Virus record (IMG/VR): IMGVR_UViG_3300044732_000293
Span: 1-64,000 of that record
Direction: 5' to 3' (one strand)
From: a virus
Length of the DNA: 64,000 nucleotides
Positions 11,296 to 18,043 of this stretch are shown here, piece by piece. The notes under the pieces are model-generated. The model searched no databases and had not been told where the DNA came from. It was given only the letters and a program-made list of their open reading frames with translations. The first letter of the stretch is position 1. Each line of letters starts with the position of its first letter. The translations under genes were made by a program, and so were the position numbers.

Positions 11296-12330
11296 ATGGC
11301 AATAAGTTTTCCTTCTTCTCCATCAACAGGTGATCAGTTTCCAGCATCAAACGGAAGAGTTTATCTTTGGGATGGTACTTGGACTACTAAAGCAGATACT
11401 ACAACACCTAATCCTTTTGCAGCTAAGCCGTTTAAGTTTAGATCTATTTACACAAGAGGATATATGGCAGGAGGTTATAAAAATGCATCTCCATGGAAAA
11501 ATCTTAATAGAACTGTACATTCTACAGATATTACAACAAACCTTGGAGATCAGATAGATTATGGTGGTGCATATGTAGATGCGGGTCATAGTGATTATAA
11601 CATGTTTATATATGGTCTTGATGATGCTTTTTCTGGAGCTAGTACACATACATCTTCTATTAGTATGCTTACAGAAGTTAAAAGAACACATGACTCTAGT
11701 TGGAATACTAAAACTACAAGAGATGATGTTGGATGTATAATGAACTCAACATTGACAATGGCTTACATTACAGCCGGGGGATCAACAGCTACAGATAAAC
11801 ATAATTATGTTACAGAAGTAATGTATAATGCTGGATCTGCTCCAGCTGGTCCTACAGCTGGAGATACGTATGGTAACGTAGCAGCGTGGCAAGGAGAGTT
11901 TAAAGGTTGGATTTGGAAAACGGGTCAAGGTGGAAACTTTACGTTTGCTACTGAAACCTGGAGTTCTGGTGGTACGACTGTAGCTACAGATGGATGGGGT
12001 AAAGGATTATCTACTAAGCATGGACATGCTTATGTAAAAAATGGGGGTAACATTGTAACAGGTGCTTATAAGTTAAATGATACTTCTGGTGCTCAAATAA
12101 GAACTGACTTAAACTTTGATAACTCTGGAGAGGAAAATTATCAAACTGGACAAAACTGGGGATACTGTGTTGGTCATTATAACGGTGCTCAAAATAATAA
12201 TACCTATAAGGTACATTCAATAACAGATGTTTATACAGTACTAGGATCTGATTCTCAACCAAAAGGACATGACGGTGCGTCATCCGGAGGGTGTGCGTCA
12301 GCTAGTGCGTTAATTTTAGGAGGACTATAA
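11296..12330 (+). CDS. Propeller-like fibre/adhesin protein, copy A
   Basis: The product has 344 residues. It begins with a fibre-type segment (FPSSPSTGDQFPASNG, then VYLWDGTWTT), which is common at the start of phage tail proteins. The rest is Gly/Thr/Tyr-rich with repeated blades of the type GYMAGGYKNASPWKN, ITAGGSTATDKHNY and GKGLSTKHGHAY, suggesting a kelch-like beta-propeller. The C-terminus has a conserved GSDSQPKGHDGASSGG signature. The next gene is a full-length paralogue with the same beginning and end. The gene starts one base after the stop of the long fibre. A role as receptor-binding or decoration protein is inferred. The His- and Gly-rich C-terminal motif may bind metal. Confidence 0.75.
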   Translation: MAISFPSSPSTGDQFPASNGRVYLWDGTWTTKADTTTPNPFAAKPFKFRSIYTRGYMAGGYKNASPWKNLNRTVHSTDITTNLGDQIDYGGAYVDAGHSDYNMFIYGLDDAFSGASTHTSSISMLTEVKRTHDSSWNTKTTRDDVGCIMNSTLTMAYITAGGSTATDKHNYVTEVMYNAGSAPAGPTAGDTYGNVAAWQGEFKGWIWKTGQGGNFTFATETWSSGGTTVATDGWGKGLSTKHGHAYVKNGGNIVTGAYKLNDTSGAQIRTDLNFDNSGEENYQTGQNWGYCVGHYNGAQNNNTYKVHSITDVYTVLGSDSQPKGHDGASSGGCASASALILGGL

Positions 12331-12331
12331 T

Positions 12332-13369
12332 ATGGCATTTTCATTTCCATCATCACCAAGTACAGGAACGTTATTTACAGCTCCTAGTGGTGTTATGTAT
12401 GTTTGGGACGGAAGTTGGACAACAATGGGAGACACTCAAGCGTCTAACCCATTCAGTAATAGTTTTTTATATAGATCTATTTATACAAAAGGATACATGA
12501 ATGGTGGATATAAAAATAGTTCTCCTTGGAGGAATGTTAATAAAACTATTCATTCTACAGATATGACAACTAACTTAGGAGATAAGTTAGTTTATAATAG
12601 TAGTTACGTTGGTGGAGGATTTAGTGATTATAATAGTTATATTTATCCTAGTACAGGAGCTGTTGGTGGTGCTGGTACAATTGTAGAATCTATGAACATG
12701 GCTAATGAAACAATGTTTGCATTAGACTCAGCTAGATATTTAAAAACTACACGTAGTGACTGTGAAGCTTTAATGACACCTGCTTTAACAGCTGCATATA
12801 TAGTTGGTGGTGGTACTACTGCAGTTGACAGACATAACTTTACTACAGATATTATGTTTTCTGCAGGAACAGCTCCAGCATCTCCATTAAGTGGAGGTAC
12901 AGGTGGAGGTCTTGGTTCTTTATTTGGTAGATTTAAAGCTTGGATTTCTCAAGGTGCAGGATCATCATTTACTTGGGCTACAGAAACATGGGCTACAGGA
13001 GGAATGAGCTGGGCAACAGATGGTCAACCTAAAGGTTTATCTAGTAAACATGGTCATGGTTATGGTGGAGTAGGTAGTTATCCCGGTTCTTCTTATGTTT
13101 ATAAGTTTAGTGAAGCAACAGGTTCAAATCTTGCTACAGTTAATAGAGCTAAAAATAATGGTGAAGAAAACTGGCAGATAGGTCAAAACTGGGGATATAT
13201 GCTTGGGGCATATGATTCATCACCTCTTGGTCAGAATAATGATGCTGAAAGAATTAATTATTTAACTGATACATACACACAATTAGGTAGTGACACTCAA
13301 CCAAAAGGTCATGATGGGGCATCCTCAGGATCTTGTGCTACAGGTTCAGCAGCATTTGTTGGTTACTAA
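12332..13369 (+). CDS. Propeller-like fibre/adhesin protein, copy B
   Basis: The 345-residue product aligns over its whole length with the preceding protein. Both have the FPSSPSTG start, the WDG-x-WTT segment, GYM-x-GGYKN-x-SPW, STDMTTNLGDKL and the closing GSDTQPKGHDGASSGS motif. The middle has diverged, especially the Gly-rich stretch at residues 185-205. This is a tandem gene duplication, with one base between the two genes. Paralogous pairs of this kind often differ in ligand specificity, so the two may give two binding types or a heteromeric tip, which is inference. It is the last gene before the accessory island, and a Bacteroidota-type promoter candidate overlaps its 3' end. Confidence 0.75.
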   Translation: MAFSFPSSPSTGTLFTAPSGVMYVWDGSWTTMGDTQASNPFSNSFLYRSIYTKGYMNGGYKNSSPWRNVNKTIHSTDMTTNLGDKLVYNSSYVGGGFSDYNSYIYPSTGAVGGAGTIVESMNMANETMFALDSARYLKTTRSDCEALMTPALTAAYIVGGGTTAVDRHNFTTDIMFSAGTAPASPLSGGTGGGLGSLFGRFKAWISQGAGSSFTWATETWATGGMSWATDGQPKGLSSKHGHGYGGVGSYPGSSYVYKFSEATGSNLATVNRAKNNGEENWQIGQNWGYMLGAYDSSPLGQNNDAERINYLTDTYTQLGSDTQPKGHDGASSGSCATGSAAFVGY

Positions 13370-13415: not shown

Positions 13416-13958
13416 ATGAAATATTTTATTGTAAGATTTTATAAAGAAGTTCCTCAAATTACAGGAATGACTTCTATTGGTTGGCTTGACTCATATGGTA
13501 TTTTTTCTGCTACTGCTGAAGCAGAAGCTGAATTACTTACTTTAAATCTTAGTATGGAAGAACTTACTGAAGATGAAGCTTTAATTGGATCTAAATTTTA
13601 TAGTATTTCAAGAGAGTTTCGTAAAGCTTATTCTGCAGTAGAAGGACTAGAGCCAGATGAAGAAGGTGGTTCTAAAACTAAGGTTTATCATACAGACCAT
13701 ACTAAAGCCGTTACTCTTAGCTTAATGAAGAAGATTGCTAAGCGTAGAGTTGTAGATGAGTTTAATCGTAGAGAAAATCAAACTGGTAAAGAAAGTATTC
13801 TTACTTCTATTGATGCTGCTGCTACTATTTGGGACTTAAATATTCTTAGAGAAGATTTATTAGGTGTAGAAATGCCTTTATATCAAGCTCAAGAAATGGG
13901 ATTGCTTAATGAAAATGGTATACGTATTGTACCTGTTGATTATAGTAAAGGATTTTAA
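13416..13958 (+). CDS. Unknown protein, first gene of the accessory island
   Basis: I do not recognise this 180-residue product. It begins with a beta strand (MKYFIVRFYKEVP), continues with an acidic helical segment (residues 40-60) and has a basic helical part around residues 105-125 (MKKIAKRRVVDEFNRREN). It ends with mixed helix and strand. It has no Cys, signal peptide or membrane segment, so it is probably cytoplasmic or a virion component. It lies 26 nt downstream of a Bacteroidota-type promoter candidate and 21 nt before a gene for an exported outer-membrane protein. The composition is unlike the low-complexity fibres on its left. Confidence 0.65.
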   Translation: MKYFIVRFYKEVPQITGMTSIGWLDSYGIFSATAEAEAELLTLNLSMEELTEDEALIGSKFYSISREFRKAYSAVEGLEPDEEGGSKTKVYHTDHTKAVTLSLMKKIAKRRVVDEFNRRENQTGKESILTSIDAAATIWDLNILREDLLGVEMPLYQAQEMGLLNENGIRIVPVDYSKGF

Positions 13959-13979: not shown

Positions 13980-14849
13980 ATGAGAAAAGTGAAGATGCTA
14001 CTAGCAGCTTTATTTGTTACTGTATTGTCATTTGGTCAATATAGTAACAGTGCAATTAGACAAGGAACTGAAGAAGCTCTTAAGTCTCAGGATACAACTA
14101 AAAATGAGTTACAAGCTATAGTTGTAATTGCAAAGAAGGTACCGTTGATGACTAAGGTGGGTCCTTACAATCAACCTCTTTGGACAACAATTAGAATGTT
14201 TCCATCTACTAGAGTTTATGTAATGAACCCTCCAGGTACTGCAATGTATGAGAAGTGGTTTGATGTTAGACAGAGAAGAAATGGTGCAGCTCAAATTAGA
14301 ATGAGAGATGAATTTACATTTGGTTTAGGTAAAAGACTTCAATTAGATCTTTATTCTCATACAGTGTATGATGGTTTAAATGGAGATAAGACTTTTAAAT
14401 GGAGAGGATTTTCTTGGGAGTTTAGATATGCTTTAGCTGACTGGGGTAAGATTTGGGGTAACCCAACTCTTTACTATGAGATGAAAATGTTAGATGGTCG
14501 TTGGGGCATTGAACCTAAATTATTACTAGGTGATAAGATTGGTAAAAAAGGAGTATGGGGATTTAATGCTATTTATGAAGGTAATTTAGCTAGCACTAAA
14601 GAAGAGCAGGAAAGAGAATATGCTTATACAGCATCTTATGCTAATATAATTAATAATGATTTGTCTCTTGGTGTATCACATATGTTTAGATATAATGACT
14701 ATGAGGGTGGTTCAGAAGAGTGGTATGTTGGTCCGTTAGTTCAATATCGTTTTAGTAACAAAGGTTATTTAAACATTGAGCATATGCCAGGTCTTAACCA
14801 AGATGCAAAACAATCAAGAACTTTAATTATTTTTGGCTGGAGATTTTAA
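13980..14849 (+). CDS. Exported outer-membrane beta-barrel protein, phage-encoded
   Basis: The product has 289 residues. Residues 1-20 are a clear signal peptide (MRKVKMLLAALFVTVLSFGQ) of flavobacterial style. Residues 43-53 (ELQAIVVIAKK) resemble the short conserved segment at the N-terminus of TonB-dependent receptors. The rest alternates aromatic and polar residues typical of transmembrane strands (for example LQLDLYSHTVYD and WGFNAIYEGNLA) and ends in FGWRF. A terminal aromatic residue is the usual signal for the BAM insertion machinery. It is far shorter than a TonB receptor (600-1000 residues), so a barrel of about 8-12 strands is likelier. Possible roles, all inferred, are masking of the receptor against superinfection or nutrient entry. 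A virion role seems unlikely because of the signal peptide. Confidence 0.75.
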   Translation: MRKVKMLLAALFVTVLSFGQYSNSAIRQGTEEALKSQDTTKNELQAIVVIAKKVPLMTKVGPYNQPLWTTIRMFPSTRVYVMNPPGTAMYEKWFDVRQRRNGAAQIRMRDEFTFGLGKRLQLDLYSHTVYDGLNGDKTFKWRGFSWEFRYALADWGKIWGNPTLYYEMKMLDGRWGIEPKLLLGDKIGKKGVWGFNAIYEGNLASTKEEQEREYAYTASYANIINNDLSLGVSHMFRYNDYEGGSEEWYVGPLVQYRFSNKGYLNIEHMPGLNQDAKQSRTLIIFGWRF

Positions 14850-14860
14850 ATAAAACAACA

Positions 14861-15574
14861 ATGGAAAAACAAGACGTTATAAAACTAGCAGAAAGTCATG
14901 GTGGATGGAGTATGAGTGATTTTCAAAGTAGATACTTTGTAGTTAATTCACAAGTAACTGATTATCGTAGAGTTAGACAAGCTTTACTAGAAATTGAAAC
15001 ACGTATTGCTGCTAAGAAACAAATTATCCGTGATACTAAAAGATCACAGGTTAAACTAAAGATTAAAGAAAAAGAGCTTGTAGCTCAATTAGATGATCTT
15101 GAAAAAGAACTTATTCTTTTAGACATAGATCAACTTCAGTATGATATTTCTGTATATGAAAAGAAGTTAAGAATTGTAGAAGAAGAGCTTGACGAGTTTG
15201 CAAAACTTGTTGTTGAGATTGTTCCTACTATAGAAGAGTTAGAGACATATAAAGAACATAATGATGAGCTTGAAAGAGAGTATTGGATTTCCCGTATGGC
15301 AAAACAAGCTAGTGTAGATATGATAACCACTGGAAGAATTGGTGCTGGTAATTTAGACTCAATTGCTATGATGGCATCACAAGATCAAGTTTTAACTATT
15401 GGTTCTGCTTTGTTAAACTCAAAGAAGCTTACTGCAGGTATTAATAAGATTGAACAAGCTCTTGATACTAATACCAGTCTTCTTGAAAGTAGTTTTTCTG
15501 GATTGTTTGAGAAGAGTGATTTTGTTAAACTGTTATCTGAAAAAAAGGAAAAAACGGATGGCCAAGATATTTAG
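14861..15574 (+). CDS. Coiled-coil protein of the accessory island
   Basis: The product has 237 residues. Residues 1-35 are a small N-terminal part (KLAESHGGWSMSDFQSRYFV). Residues 38-135 form a long, highly charged coiled coil rich in Glu, Lys and Leu, and the C-terminal third is shorter amphipathic helix. I know no family for it. It has no signal peptide or membrane segment. The gene overlaps the start of the iron-sulfur/methyltransferase gene by 17 nt, so the two are probably translated in a coupled way and may work together. A scaffold or tail-measure-like role cannot be excluded, but the length is short for the latter. It ends in TAG, one of only two such stops in the window. Confidence 0.65.
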   Translation: MEKQDVIKLAESHGGWSMSDFQSRYFVVNSQVTDYRRVRQALLEIETRIAAKKQIIRDTKRSQVKLKIKEKELVAQLDDLEKELILLDIDQLQYDISVYEKKLRIVEEELDEFAKLVVEIVPTIEELETYKEHNDELEREYWISRMAKQASVDMITTGRIGAGNLDSIAMMASQDQVLTIGSALLNSKKLTAGINKIEQALDTNTSLLESSFSGLFEKSDFVKLLSEKKEKTDGQDI

Positions 15575-17168
15575 TCTACCAATCAATCCTAAGTTATCTG
15601 AAAAACAGTTTATAGAGTTTGTAGAGTTTTGTGACAAGTATAAAGACTATATTTCAGATCTATACTTTACATGTAGAGTTCCTCCATTTACACAAGATGC
15701 TATGGGTGATCTTTTTACTTCTAAGGATGATCCTCAGTATATGATTGATGTAGCACTTTATATTCAAGAAAGAACAGGAATAACAGCTTCTGCTACTTTT
15801 AATAATATATCGGTTAGACCAACACAGGAAAATTTAGATCTTTGGATTGAATCTTTTAAACCTATATATACTAAAGGAGTTAGATTATGTACACTACCTT
15901 TTAATCATTGGTTGTTAACTGGTCAGATTCAAAAAGAGTTTCCAGAGTTAGAAGTTAGAGCTTCTATATTGATGGATACAAAGACAGCCACAGATGCTTA
16001 TAATGTAGTGACAAGTGGTTTTCATTCTGTATGTATTGATAGAGCTCTAATGAGAGATCAAGATACTATAAAGAAGATAGTTAAGATAAAACGTAAAAAA
16101 CCTTTTAAACTTGTATTATTAGCTAATGAAGGTTGTTTAGGTAAATGTCCAGTGATGTCTGAGCATTACCATTATAATAATACTAGAACAACTGATAGTC
16201 AGTATTTTAACAATCCTATTAGTAGAGTGTCATGTCCAATGTGGGATGTTACTAATAAAGCGGTTGTATTAAAAACTGCAGATATCCCAGCTTGGAAAGA
16301 AGACTGGGATGAGTTTCTTGATATGGGAGTAGATATCTTTAAGATGCATGGTAGAGAAAACGTTAAGAAGATATATGATTCCATGAATATTGTCAGAAAC
16401 TACGCAGAGAATAAGACTATGTTATATGACATAAATCTTAAGATTAGTGAAGACAATGCTGCTAAGTGGAGGAAGATTATTAAAACCTGTCAGTTTGAAT
16501 GTTGGAGTTGTAACTTCTGTGATAGAATAGCTGGTGGTGAGTTAGATAAAAAAGCAGTTAGTGTTGCAAATATTCTAGTTGATAGCGTTAACTCAGATTT
16601 TGAAACAACAGTTCCAGGATTATCTAGTCCTAGAATTGATAAGCTTTTAAATGAACTTGGTAAAATATCAACAGGCTATTTAGAAATTGGTTGTCTTGGT
16701 GGTAGAACTTTTTCTAGTACTATTGCTGGTAATAAGTTAAATGCGTATGCTGTAGATAACTGGAAAGAAGGAGTAGCTGCAGAGAATAACTCTATTGATA
16801 TAACTGTTACCAAAGAAGACTTTGTTAAGAATATTCTACCATATAAAGGAGAGAATAAAATCAAAGTGTTTAACTGTGACTATATTGATGTAGATAAAAC
16901 CAATATTAAAGATATAGATTTATTTCTATATGATGGAGATCACTCACATAATAGTACAAGACTTGCAGTAGAGTATTTTGCAGACACATTTGCAGAAGAA
17001 TGTATTTTAGTTTTTGATGATGCTAATTGGGAAGGTGTAGTAAGTGGTGCTCTTGCAGGTATAGAAAAAGCTGGTTTAACTATTCAGTATGAGAAAAAAC
17101 TATTGAATAGTATAGAGGATAAAGATATGTGGTGGAATGGATTGTATATAGTGGTTGTTAAAAAGTAA
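15558..17168 (+). CDS. Fusion of U32-like iron-sulfur barrel and class I methyltransferase
   Basis: I start at ATG 15558 (536 residues) and not at the in-frame ATG 108 nt upstream. The upstream extension lies wholly inside the previous gene, and an AAGGA sequence sits 8 nt before 15558. Residues 1-330 look like a TIM-barrel of the U32 type with Cys clusters that could hold an Fe-S cluster: C193 and C197 (NEGCLGKCP), C226 (SCPMW) and C311-C315-C318-C321 (C-x3-C-x2-C-x2-C). Residues 370-536 are a SAM-dependent methyltransferase: E376 and the Gly-rich motif I (EIGCLGG), acidic D459-G-D461-H and FDDANW, most like the Methyltransf_24/CmcI group. U32 enzymes modify RNA, ubiquinone or proteins; the substrate here is unknown. 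A radical-SAM-like fold is the alternative for the first half. Confidence 0.72.
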   Translation: MAKIFSLPINPKLSEKQFIEFVEFCDKYKDYISDLYFTCRVPPFTQDAMGDLFTSKDDPQYMIDVALYIQERTGITASATFNNISVRPTQENLDLWIESFKPIYTKGVRLCTLPFNHWLLTGQIQKEFPELEVRASILMDTKTATDAYNVVTSGFHSVCIDRALMRDQDTIKKIVKIKRKKPFKLVLLANEGCLGKCPVMSEHYHYNNTRTTDSQYFNNPISRVSCPMWDVTNKAVVLKTADIPAWKEDWDEFLDMGVDIFKMHGRENVKKIYDSMNIVRNYAENKTMLYDINLKISEDNAAKWRKIIKTCQFECWSCNFCDRIAGGELDKKAVSVANILVDSVNSDFETTVPGLSSPRIDKLLNELGKISTGYLEIGCLGGRTFSSTIAGNKLNAYAVDNWKEGVAAENNSIDITVTKEDFVKNILPYKGENKIKVFNCDYIDVDKTNIKDIDLFLYDGDHSHNSTRLAVEYFADTFAEECILVFDDANWEGVVSGALAGIEKAGLTIQYEKKLLNSIEDKDMWWNGLYIVVVKK

Positions 17169-17170
17169 TT

Positions 17171-18043
17171 ATGGAAGTATTAATTAAATTATTAGATGGT
17201 ATATGGTTTGTCCCTTTTGTGGCAGGTATTATGTTTTTAACTAATATAATTAATGCCAAGGGATACTTTGTACCGTTTTATAAGTTTTTGGAAAAGAAGA
17301 TAAAGTCTAAAAGATTACTGATTGCTTTAATTAGTGCAGTGTCTGGAGTACTTCCAGTTCCAGGTAGAGTTATAATTAGTGCAGGGGCACTTGATACGTT
17401 AGCACCAAATGATGATAGAAAAAAGAAGTATGGTATAATAAACTATCTATCTACTCATCATTATTATCTCTGGTCTCCATTGGAAGCTACGGTATTAATT
17501 CCACTTTCTGTATTAGGTATAAGTTACTTTTACTTATTATCTATAGTTGCTCCTTTGCTAATAACTATTATTGGGATTACACTATATTACATATTTTATG
17601 TTCTTAAAGAAGATGATATTGTAATAAGTAAAATAGAGCATAAAAAAGATAAGACTATAAAAAATATAAAGTGGGATGTGGTAATGCTGACAGCTTTGGT
17701 TATTATTCTAGGCAATGGAATAAAGATGTACTCAGATACTATTGTAAACTTTCTTATGTCTTTTAATAGTGGTGTGTTTTTTGCATCTATTATAGCTTTT
17801 ATAAGCAGTTTTGTTTTAGGATCTAGTAGTAAGTTTGCAGGAATAACTACATTGTTAGTTACAGTTTTTGGTCTGAATTACTTACCACTATTTTTTGCAT
17901 TAGGTTATTCTGGTTATTTAGTAAGTCCAATGCACAAATGTTTGGTAATTACAAAAAGTTACTTTAACTTAAGTATAGAGCTATATAAGATCCTACTTCT
18001 TATAGGGGCAGTTTTAGTTACAGTAGGATATTTGTTAGTATAA
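17171..18043 (+). CDS. Multi-pass membrane protein resembling DUF401 transporters
   Basis: The product has 290 residues with about eight or nine hydrophobic segments and no cleavable signal. Conserved-looking loops include GVLPVPGRVIISAGAL (near residues 57-72), an ST-HHYYLWSPLEA segment and, near the C-terminus, GSSSKFAGITTLL and GYLVSPMHKCLVITKSYF. These half-buried Pro/Gly/Ser motifs recall the DUF401 family of putative inner-membrane ion transporters. That placement comes from memory of the motifs and is not proven. The gene follows the iron-sulfur/methyltransferase gene by 2 nt and closes the island. It would act in the host inner membrane. Full-length transporter-like genes are rare in a phage late region, so it is probably an acquired host gene. 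Confidence 0.7.
   Translation: MEVLIKLLDGIWFVPFVAGIMFLTNIINAKGYFVPFYKFLEKKIKSKRLLIALISAVSGVLPVPGRVIISAGALDTLAPNDDRKKKYGIINYLSTHHYYLWSPLEATVLIPLSVLGISYFYLLSIVAPLLITIIGITLYYIFYVLKEDDIVISKIEHKKDKTIKNIKWDVVMLTALVIILGNGIKMYSDTIVNFLMSFNSGVFFASIIAFISSFVLGSSSKFAGITTLLVTVFGLNYLPLFFALGYSGYLVSPMHKCLVITKSYFNLSIELYKILLLIGAVLVTVGYLLV

Follow-up and report, generated by a model that had tools for sequence, protein, structure and literature searches.

A cyanophage protein family that joins a probable U32-type barrel to an O-methyltransferase and is encoded beside a predicted Kelch propeller

The fusion gene and its family

We analyzed a 64,000-nucleotide stretch of viral DNA (the window; positions 1 to 64,000 of IMG/VR record IMGVR_UViG_3300044732_000293), whose parent virus record spans 100,841 bases (G+C 32-36%). 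On its plus strand, with tail-fibre-type genes on both sides, an open reading frame (ORF) without internal stops encodes a 536-residue protein joining a probable U32-type barrel to a class I O-methyltransferase (Table 1), and stops are abundant on the minus strand across the same interval. This anatomy had been outlined in a first-pass annotation made from the letters alone, and both its ORF and its motif positions (Cys 193/197/226/311/315/318/321, EIGCLGG 376-382, DGDH 459-462, and FDDANW 486-491) are as it described them. The ATG at 15558 lies inside the upstream gene (14861-15574), whose last 17 bases are shared with the fusion gene, and a TTG at 15450 offers an alternative, longer start. 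In all 4 closest relatives (L001-L004) the corresponding residue is also encoded by ATG, and 3 of them have another in-frame ATG slightly further upstream.

The fusion is no singleton, and belongs to a family that cyanophage records call "hypothetical protein". Using hmmscan, it is assigned to phrog_1458 (E 3.6e-133, residues 49-536), while the barrel alone also matches phrog_36869, both families being of unknown function in PHROGs. By tblastn, 123 of 50,697 phage records contain the fusion, always at a single place with a coverage of at least 80%; all 123 are named Synechococcus, Prochlorococcus, or cyanophage. Among the matches listed, the annotation under the fusion is either a hypothetical protein or that of an evident neighbor (denV, tail fibre), and the Syn33 copy corresponds to T4-GC 354. 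A scan of viral contigs returned 116 relatives, and 80 of them were retained. From these 80, 36 representatives (92% identity) were aligned with the window protein, and the resulting 37-sequence alignment reaches down to 41% identity. The barrel half is better conserved than the methyltransferase half, with mean column identities of 68% vs 46%.

Table 1. Positions in the window of the fusion gene, its domains and motifs (residue numbers of the fusion protein), and the upstream cassette genes
Feature	Position	Strand	Basis
U32-like barrel / O-methyltransferase fusion, 536 residues	15558..17168	+	phrog_1458, T4-GC 354
Predicted (beta/alpha)8 barrel, residues 1-283	15558..16406	+	AlphaFold2 model; 5D88 match
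C193-x3-C197, NEGCxxxC motif, directly past strand 7	16134..16148	+	Invariant 37/37; 14/14 including distant bacterial relatives
C226, third barrel Cys	16233..16235	+	Invariant 37/37
KMHGR 262-266, counterpart of U32 KxxGR past strand 8	16341..16355	+	Invariance; weak PF01136 match
C311-x3-C315-x2-C318-x2-C321, past strand 8	16488..16520	+	Invariant in the 37-, 18-barrel, and 14-sequence alignments
Class I O-methyltransferase domain, residues 345-536	16590..17165	+	PF13578; COMT/SafC/TomG/TrmR fold
S-adenosylmethionine (SAM) motif I, EIGCLGG 376-382	16683..16703	+	G378, G382 invariant; E376 nearly so (n = 37)
DGDH 459-462	16932..16943	+	D459 invariant; aligns with TrmR residue 133 (HMMER)
DDAN 487-490, putative metal site	17016..17027	+	D487, D488, N490 invariant; D487/D488 over TrmR 159/160 (HMMER)
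phrog_1417 gene, predicted six-bladed Kelch propeller, copy A (T4-GC 351 family); candidate substrate	11296..12330	+	PHROGs and T4-GC match; model
Kelch paralogue, copy B	12332..13369	+	phrog_1417, E 3.4e-61
phrog_1604 cassette gene (T4-GC 352 family)	13416..13958	+	PHROGs match
phrog_1409 cassette gene (T4-GC 353), coiled-coil-like, overlaps the fusion gene	14861..15574	+	PHROGs match

Predicted folds and conserved sites

An AlphaFold2 model built from the 37-sequence alignment (predicted local distance difference test, pLDDT, 86.5; predicted template-modelling score, pTM, 0.77) shows 8 barrel strands in order with helices between them (residues 5-8, 32-38, 76-80, 110-113, 132-135, 157-160, 184-189, and 260-263), in agreement with the TIM barrel proposed for the first domain. 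Among solved structures, the best match of this barrel is the U32 protein 5D88 (Z 16.6, root-mean-square deviation [rmsd] 3.4, 226 aligned, residues 1-272). The structural searches of the fusion used its whole model, with the barrel folded and searched as part of it. In a second-look structural alignment, 5D88 ranks second and is the sole barrel among the 50 matches listed, the others being class I methyltransferases (e.g. TomG, SafC, COMT, and TrmR; Z 14.7-16.7). In the plain Foldseek ranking, 5D88 stands at rank 49 (TM 0.63 by target length) and some pyruvate kinase barrels lie above it by E-value, but with rmsd >20. The protein A0A3G3MCS7 (BFVD, "Peptidase", Escherichia phage OLB35) also resembles the barrel structurally (TMt 0.68, 19% identity), which hints at more phage U32-type proteins.

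The fusion protein contains 14 cysteines, and the 7 named in the first-pass annotation are invariant in 37/37 aligned sequences, while the other 7 (25, 39, 111, 159, 379, 440, and 482) vary. Judged from the alignment, this invariance is beyond chance. Three of them belong to the barrel, i.e. the pair directly past strand 7 and C226, although the model is poor just before the latter (residues 214-225 at pLDDT <50) and holds no cofactor. Within KMHGR, residues K262, H264, G265, and R266 are invariant. The 4 cysteines from C311 to C321 may form another metal or Fe-S site beyond the barrel.

The poor direct recognition of the barrel by U32 profiles counts against its U32 membership. The curated family PF01136 yields E 0.0068 with the window protein (11.5 bits against a cut-off of 22.4) in a weak match around residues 236-311, is absent from a Pfam hmmscan of this protein at E up to 5, and, with a threshold of E 10, matches only 2 of the 37 members (best 0.012). 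Profile-profile comparisons with 4 E. coli U32 proteins and a 29-sequence U32 alignment and its subsets also give weak scores (E 0.001-0.06, and 0.16-0.83 against L135), although the alignments stay in register across the mid-barrel. L135 is another U32 protein of genome G003 (PF01136 E 1.8e-25), and its C-terminal Cys cluster is different. PDB sequence searches with the full protein or the barrel profile returned chance-level matches only. Finally, the 4-Cys U32 motif CX6CX15CX3/4C (PMC6747719) is not present in the window protein, which instead has CX3CX28C and CX3CX2CX2C.

A chain through bacterial proteins leads to U32 nonetheless. We searched 395 genomes from G001's phylum (G001 being the source of the Desulfocapsa-titled locus L089) with a profile built from 18 barrels. 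Matches occur in 15 genomes including G001 itself, and a search around G003 gave the same set apart from the center. The 11 bacterial proteins extracted (L146-L156; 353-427 residues as extracted) match this profile at E 1e-14 to 5e-7 and all have the seven-Cys 3+4 layout with N-[EN]-x-C-x3-C. Specifically, KxxGR is found in 9/11 and KxxER in 2/11, and the C-terminal cysteines follow CX3CX2CX2C in 9/11 and CX4CX2CX2C in 2/11. Eight of these relatives were scanned: 5 pass the PF01136 cut-off (best E 6.8e-14), 3 show weak TrhP or UbiU matches in NCBIfam, and none of the 8 has a methyltransferase family. Their identity to the window barrel is 18-22% (8 aligned). In a 14-sequence alignment of phage and bacterial barrels, C193, C197, C311, C315, C318, C321, K262, and R266 are invariant. 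C226 gives no clean column there because the preceding loop varies, and a Cys is present near its position in every one of the 14 sequences as read.

Direct recognition is weak, but the chain through relatives that pass PF01136 therefore places the barrel within the U32 superfamily, as a distant branch with seven cysteines that lies outside the curated family by its cut-off. By homology, it would work like a U32 oxidase. We hold it highly probable that the gene encodes a U32-type barrel fused to an O-methyltransferase; the first-pass annotation had suggested a U32-like barrel joined to a class I methyltransferase. Of the profile searches it called for, that with PF01136 stays below the cut-off for the window protein itself and passes it for 5 of the 8 bacterial relatives scanned. 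A TrhP query matched 44 phage records, none of them named cyanophage and 28 of them plain "Bacteriophage", and a plasmid search found no relative of the bacterial barrel.

The C-terminal domain is a class I, COMT/TrmR-like methyltransferase with a predicted Rossmann fold, in line with the first-pass call. PF13578 (Methyltransf_24) exceeds its cut-off with the window protein (E 1.3e-7; 32.9 bits vs 26.3) and, with a threshold of E 10, matches 36 of the 37 members (best 2.4e-11). Among the structural matches are TrmR (5zw3, Z 15.6), SpnH, and Macrocin O-methyltransferase. When the methyltransferase profile is searched against PDB sequences, Bacillus subtilis YrrM (TrmR) comes first, at a weak E of 0.0075, and the invariant D459, D487, and D488 fall over TrmR residues 133, 159, and 160, which we take to be the metal site of that enzyme.

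A tail-region cassette with a predicted Kelch partner

The fusion gene travels with a set of tail-region genes, those for a phrog_1417-type protein and for two small proteins (phrog_1604 and phrog_1409) lying upstream of it. Among the 36 representatives, a phrog_1409 gene lies upstream in 31 of the 32 with >1.5 kb of upstream sequence, and a phrog_1417-type gene in 26 of the 26 with >4 kb; over all 80 viral loci with enough flank, the counts are 69/71 and 58/58, respectively. A reverse search with the window phrog_1417 protein gave 4 loci, i.e. 3 contigs already known for the fusion and a fourth that also carries it. The fusion, phrog_1409, and phrog_1417 proteins each match 123 of the 50,697 phage records, and these divide by name in the same way (77/38/8 for each); the 3 sets were compared by count and name breakdown, and 4 records (Syn33, P-HM2, P-SSM4, and S-ShM2) were read individually. 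A longer Syn33 GC351 query matches 158 records, the weakest of those listed covering only its first 112 residues. In S-ShM2 all 3 genes are present, with the fusion ~6 kb from phrog_1409 and petE and gnd among the intervening genes.

The phrog_1417 protein was folded from a 38-sequence alignment (pLDDT 83.9), and residues 53-336 of the model match six-bladed Kelch propellers over ~263 residues (Z 28-29.6). The best match is 7onc (Z 29.6, rmsd 2.4, 263 aligned), and the Kelch domain of Keap1 reaches Z 28.6. On this model, we predict a six-bladed Kelch propeller, in which conservation is strongest at residues such as G60, Y61, W67, N71, Y93, GEE 278-280, G293, Y295, and G327. PMC3037559 already mentions a Kelch-repeat protein unique to P-HM2, which may be the product of this gene, and the Kelch reading may therefore have a precedent there.

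A second phage lineage reshuffles the gene order and keeps the set in 4 of 5 loci by profile (L101, L137, L138, and L139). A Kelch profile made without the L101 copies finds these 4 loci (E 2e-17 to 2e-21) and not L136, whose Kelch relative is recognized only by its 46% identity to the L101 copy. PHROGs has no family for the L101 Kelch copy, and by tblastn the window Kelch sequences find L137 alone in this lineage (E 5e-5 and 5e-4). The two halves of the fusion part company in the same lineage: they are fused in the window, in the matched cyanophage records, and in the 80 viral loci, and are separate adjacent ORFs in L101, L137, and L139. In L138 (9011-9609) the separate methyltransferase gene is broken by a frame change, from either a sequencing error or a decaying gene.

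The barrel also stands alone in 3 bacterial loci, from Syntrophaceae-titled and Desulfocapsa-titled metagenome-assembled genomes (MAGs; L089, L090, and L091). Across split, solo, and fused forms, the barrel is therefore the constant part. In L089, as read by eye, it is flanked by an RTX-like ORF on one side and an ABC transporter ORF on the other, and a GLUG-repeat ORF is found ~3.7 kb from the barrel of L091, while no RTX/GLUG-type repeat gene occurs on the 7.4 kb of L090. The presence of large repeat-type ORFs near 2 of the 3 closest bacterial barrels agrees with a tail-protein target. The Syntrophaceae-titled loci L091 (3958-13804) and L090 have a second, shorter barrel-like ORF (258-259 residues) and a GNAT gene together with the barrel gene, along with permease-like and sulfate-activation-like genes (by eye), and L091 has a sulfotransferase. 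Two loci titled as MAGs of Euryarchaeota and Dehalococcoidia (L087 and L088) hold the phage cassette and therefore look like virus contigs binned with their host or wrongly.

P-HM1 and P-HM2 were co-isolated from the same water on a single host and have ~40 unshared genes each (PMC3037559). Their aligned flanks around the cassette site are 74-87% identical, and at this same site they hold non-homologous islands: P-HM2 (L103, 12289-18182) has the cassette and 2 more genes, and P-HM1 (L144, 14133-16178) has 2 other proteins and a 2-oxoglutarate (2OG)-Fe(II) oxygenase.

Other genes at these loci include 2OG-Fe(II) oxygenases (10/19) and tryptophan halogenases (7/19) within up to 8 kb downstream of the fusion, counted after dropping the 17 of 36 representatives with <4 kb of downstream sequence. 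We give this tie no weight because the count has no background control and because cyanophages carry many genes of these types (PMC3037559). For example, directly 3' of the fusion in L097 (9670-14037) are 2 tryptophan-halogenase-family ORFs and two 2OG-Fe(II) oxygenases. Inside the window cassette, the ORF at 13980-14849 begins like a signal peptide (by eye), weakly matches an outer-membrane-type family (PF13557, E 0.0089), and has relatives in L002, L003, and L004. Directly after the fusion, 17171-18043 encodes a DUF401 / TIGR00529 membrane protein (PF04165 E 4.8e-10, in 2 stretches) that is present in 15 of the 80 related loci.

Candidate chemistry, alternatives, and known systems

We tentatively propose, at a little under even chances, that this phage-borne U32 branch and its metal-dependent O-methyltransferase tailor a tail-region protein by O2-independent hydroxylation followed by O-methylation. 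The barrel would carry at least one [4Fe-4S] cluster on its 3 cysteines, with the 4-Cys site perhaps holding a second, and would hydroxylate an aromatic or similar side chain without O2, after which the C-terminal domain would use SAM to methylate the new hydroxyl. The likeliest target would be the predicted Kelch propeller of the cassette or another fibre protein beside it. Here we infer the chemistry from homology and the substrate from the observed linkage. A more specific version, which is doubtful though conceivable, has the barrel hydroxylating one or more aromatic residues of a Kelch receptor-binding protein (e.g. tyrosine to 3,4-dihydroxyphenylalanine, DOPA) and the COMT-like domain capping the product as methoxy, yielding an adhesive or protected tail tip in a cassette swapped between phages together with its adhesin.

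The closest precedent for this order of steps is that of B. subtilis, where 2 U32 proteins, TrhP1 and TrhP2, make 5-hydroxyuridine (ho5U) at tRNA U34 and TrmR methylates the hydroxyl (PMC6599085). More generally, U32 oxidases add hydroxyls to bases and to a quinone precursor and probably draw the oxygen from prephenate (PMC11574389, PMC6599085, PMC6747719). They come paired or with extra Cys-rich parts, with more than one cluster suggested (PMC11574389); the 3+4 cysteines of a single chain would fit this. The two-step modification put forward in the first-pass annotation is thus plausible in view of this precedent and of the weak TrmR match, and among its candidate substrates, i.e. RNA, a virion protein, or a surface sugar, the linkage points to a tail-region protein.

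Several observations weigh against our proposal. The Kelch assignment comes from a model, and Pfam, at E up to 1, assigns no family to the 2 window copies or to those of Syn33 and L101, with only a chance-level OB-domain match for that of P-HM2. L136 keeps the barrel with no methyltransferase found within 17 kb, and methylation is therefore not obligatory. The flanks of 4 more distant bacterial relatives, read by eye, include no adjoining adhesin-like gene and instead present molybdenum-hydroxylase-like, CoA-ligase-like, radical-SAM-like, or TrhP-like genes, neighbors that suit small molecules or RNA. Moreover, shared inheritance of the cassette does not prove an enzyme-substrate pair.

RNA is an unlikely substrate in our estimate. 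As a TrhP and a TrmR in one chain, the fusion would modify a wobble or rRNA base of host or phage to a 5-methoxyuridine (mo5U)-like product and tune decoding during infection, a reading that the tRNA U34 pair of B. subtilis and the rank of TrmR among PDB matches favor. Similarly, the bacterial relative L154 (within L162) adjoins a TrhP-like U32 gene near a queuine-transferase-like gene (by eye). By contrast, in each of the 26 non-redundant loci with enough flank, the fusion stays with the Kelch gene in the tail-fibre region, and between P-HM1 and P-HM2 it is exchanged as one block with other tail-region genes. No tRNA gene was found in the window, and no RNA-binding family is prominent among the best 25 of 30 families matched by the 37 members (NYN, best E 0.0054, in 2/37). 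In L162 (3016-5366), the seven-Cys barrel gene comes right after the TrhP-like gene, like the UbiU/UbiV and TrhP1/TrhP2 pairs (by eye).

We rate equally low the chance that the fusion acts, by hydroxylation and methylation, on a metabolite or sugar destined for attachment to the tail or the host surface. The methyltransferase fold does include sugar and antibiotic enzymes (TomG, SpnH, Macrocin O-methyltransferase), UbiU/UbiV act on a quinone precursor (PMC6747719), and 2 distant bacterial relatives lie near the molybdenum-hydroxylase-like genes (by eye). The constant partners, using window genes as queries, are however Kelch, phrog_1604, and phrog_1409, a weak argument since glycosyltransferases were not searched for.

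It is improbable that the 7 cysteines bind structural zinc, with a redox-dead barrel serving as a substrate-binding or chaperone module and the methyltransferase alone modifying a tail protein. The barrel proper keeps 3 cysteines and not 4, its model lacks a cofactor, and CX3CX2CX2C is also compatible with zinc. Yet the barrel is the more conserved half and occurs without the methyltransferase in L136 and the 3 bacterial loci, the reverse of what a helper domain would show. A radical SAM enzyme, which the first-pass annotation had considered for the first domain from the spacing C311-x3-C315-x2-C318, is rejected as extremely improbable: radical SAM barrels have their cluster motif after the first strand and the only CX3CX2C here lies past the eighth in the predicted model, no such family matches the window protein at E up to 5 or appears among the best 25 of 30 families of the 37 members, and SAM is already explained by the second domain.

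Overall, the first-pass annotation is partly supported, its anatomy being right and its mechanism plausible, while the spread of the family in cyanophages and the conserved Kelch cassette had escaped it. If tail-linked, the phage branch would bring virion proteins, beyond RNA and quinone precursors, within the reach of O2-independent hydroxylation and assign a role to a protein called hypothetical in cyanophage records. The co-occurrence of the fusion and its predicted Kelch partner in many ocean bacterial viruses suggests that these viruses modify some part of their own tail chemically, and the cassette difference between P-HM1 and P-HM2 makes a test possible (PMC3037559). A compact seven-Cys U32-type protein, maybe with 2 clusters per chain, is also relevant to the apparent need of U32 oxidases for more than one cluster (PMC11574389).

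In the searchable open-licence literature, we found no description of the fusion, the seven-Cys branch, its phage setting, or its Kelch partnership. The same family is present in cyanomyoviruses as phrog_1458 / T4-GC 354 (by nearly full-length tblastn matches), under hypothetical or unknown labels and with neither function nor fold given. Like the U32 oxidases TrhP, RlhA, and UbiU/UbiV, the fusion has a predicted (beta/alpha)8 barrel with a Cys pair past strand 7, a third Cys downstream, KxxGR past strand 8, and an extra Cys-rich part; unlike them, it presents CX3CX28C and CX3CX2CX2C, falls below the PF01136 cut-off, is fused to a methyltransferase, and is phage-borne beside tail genes. The bacterial "NEGC" branch (L146-L156) has the seven-Cys layout in common with it and differs by having no methyltransferase family (8 scanned) and other neighbors (4 read). 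The TrhP1/TrhP2 and TrmR system of B. subtilis likewise pairs a U32 barrel with a class I O-methyltransferase of the same fold, although from separate genes and with tRNA as the substrate (PMC6599085). U32 enzymes and O-methyltransferases are each already known.

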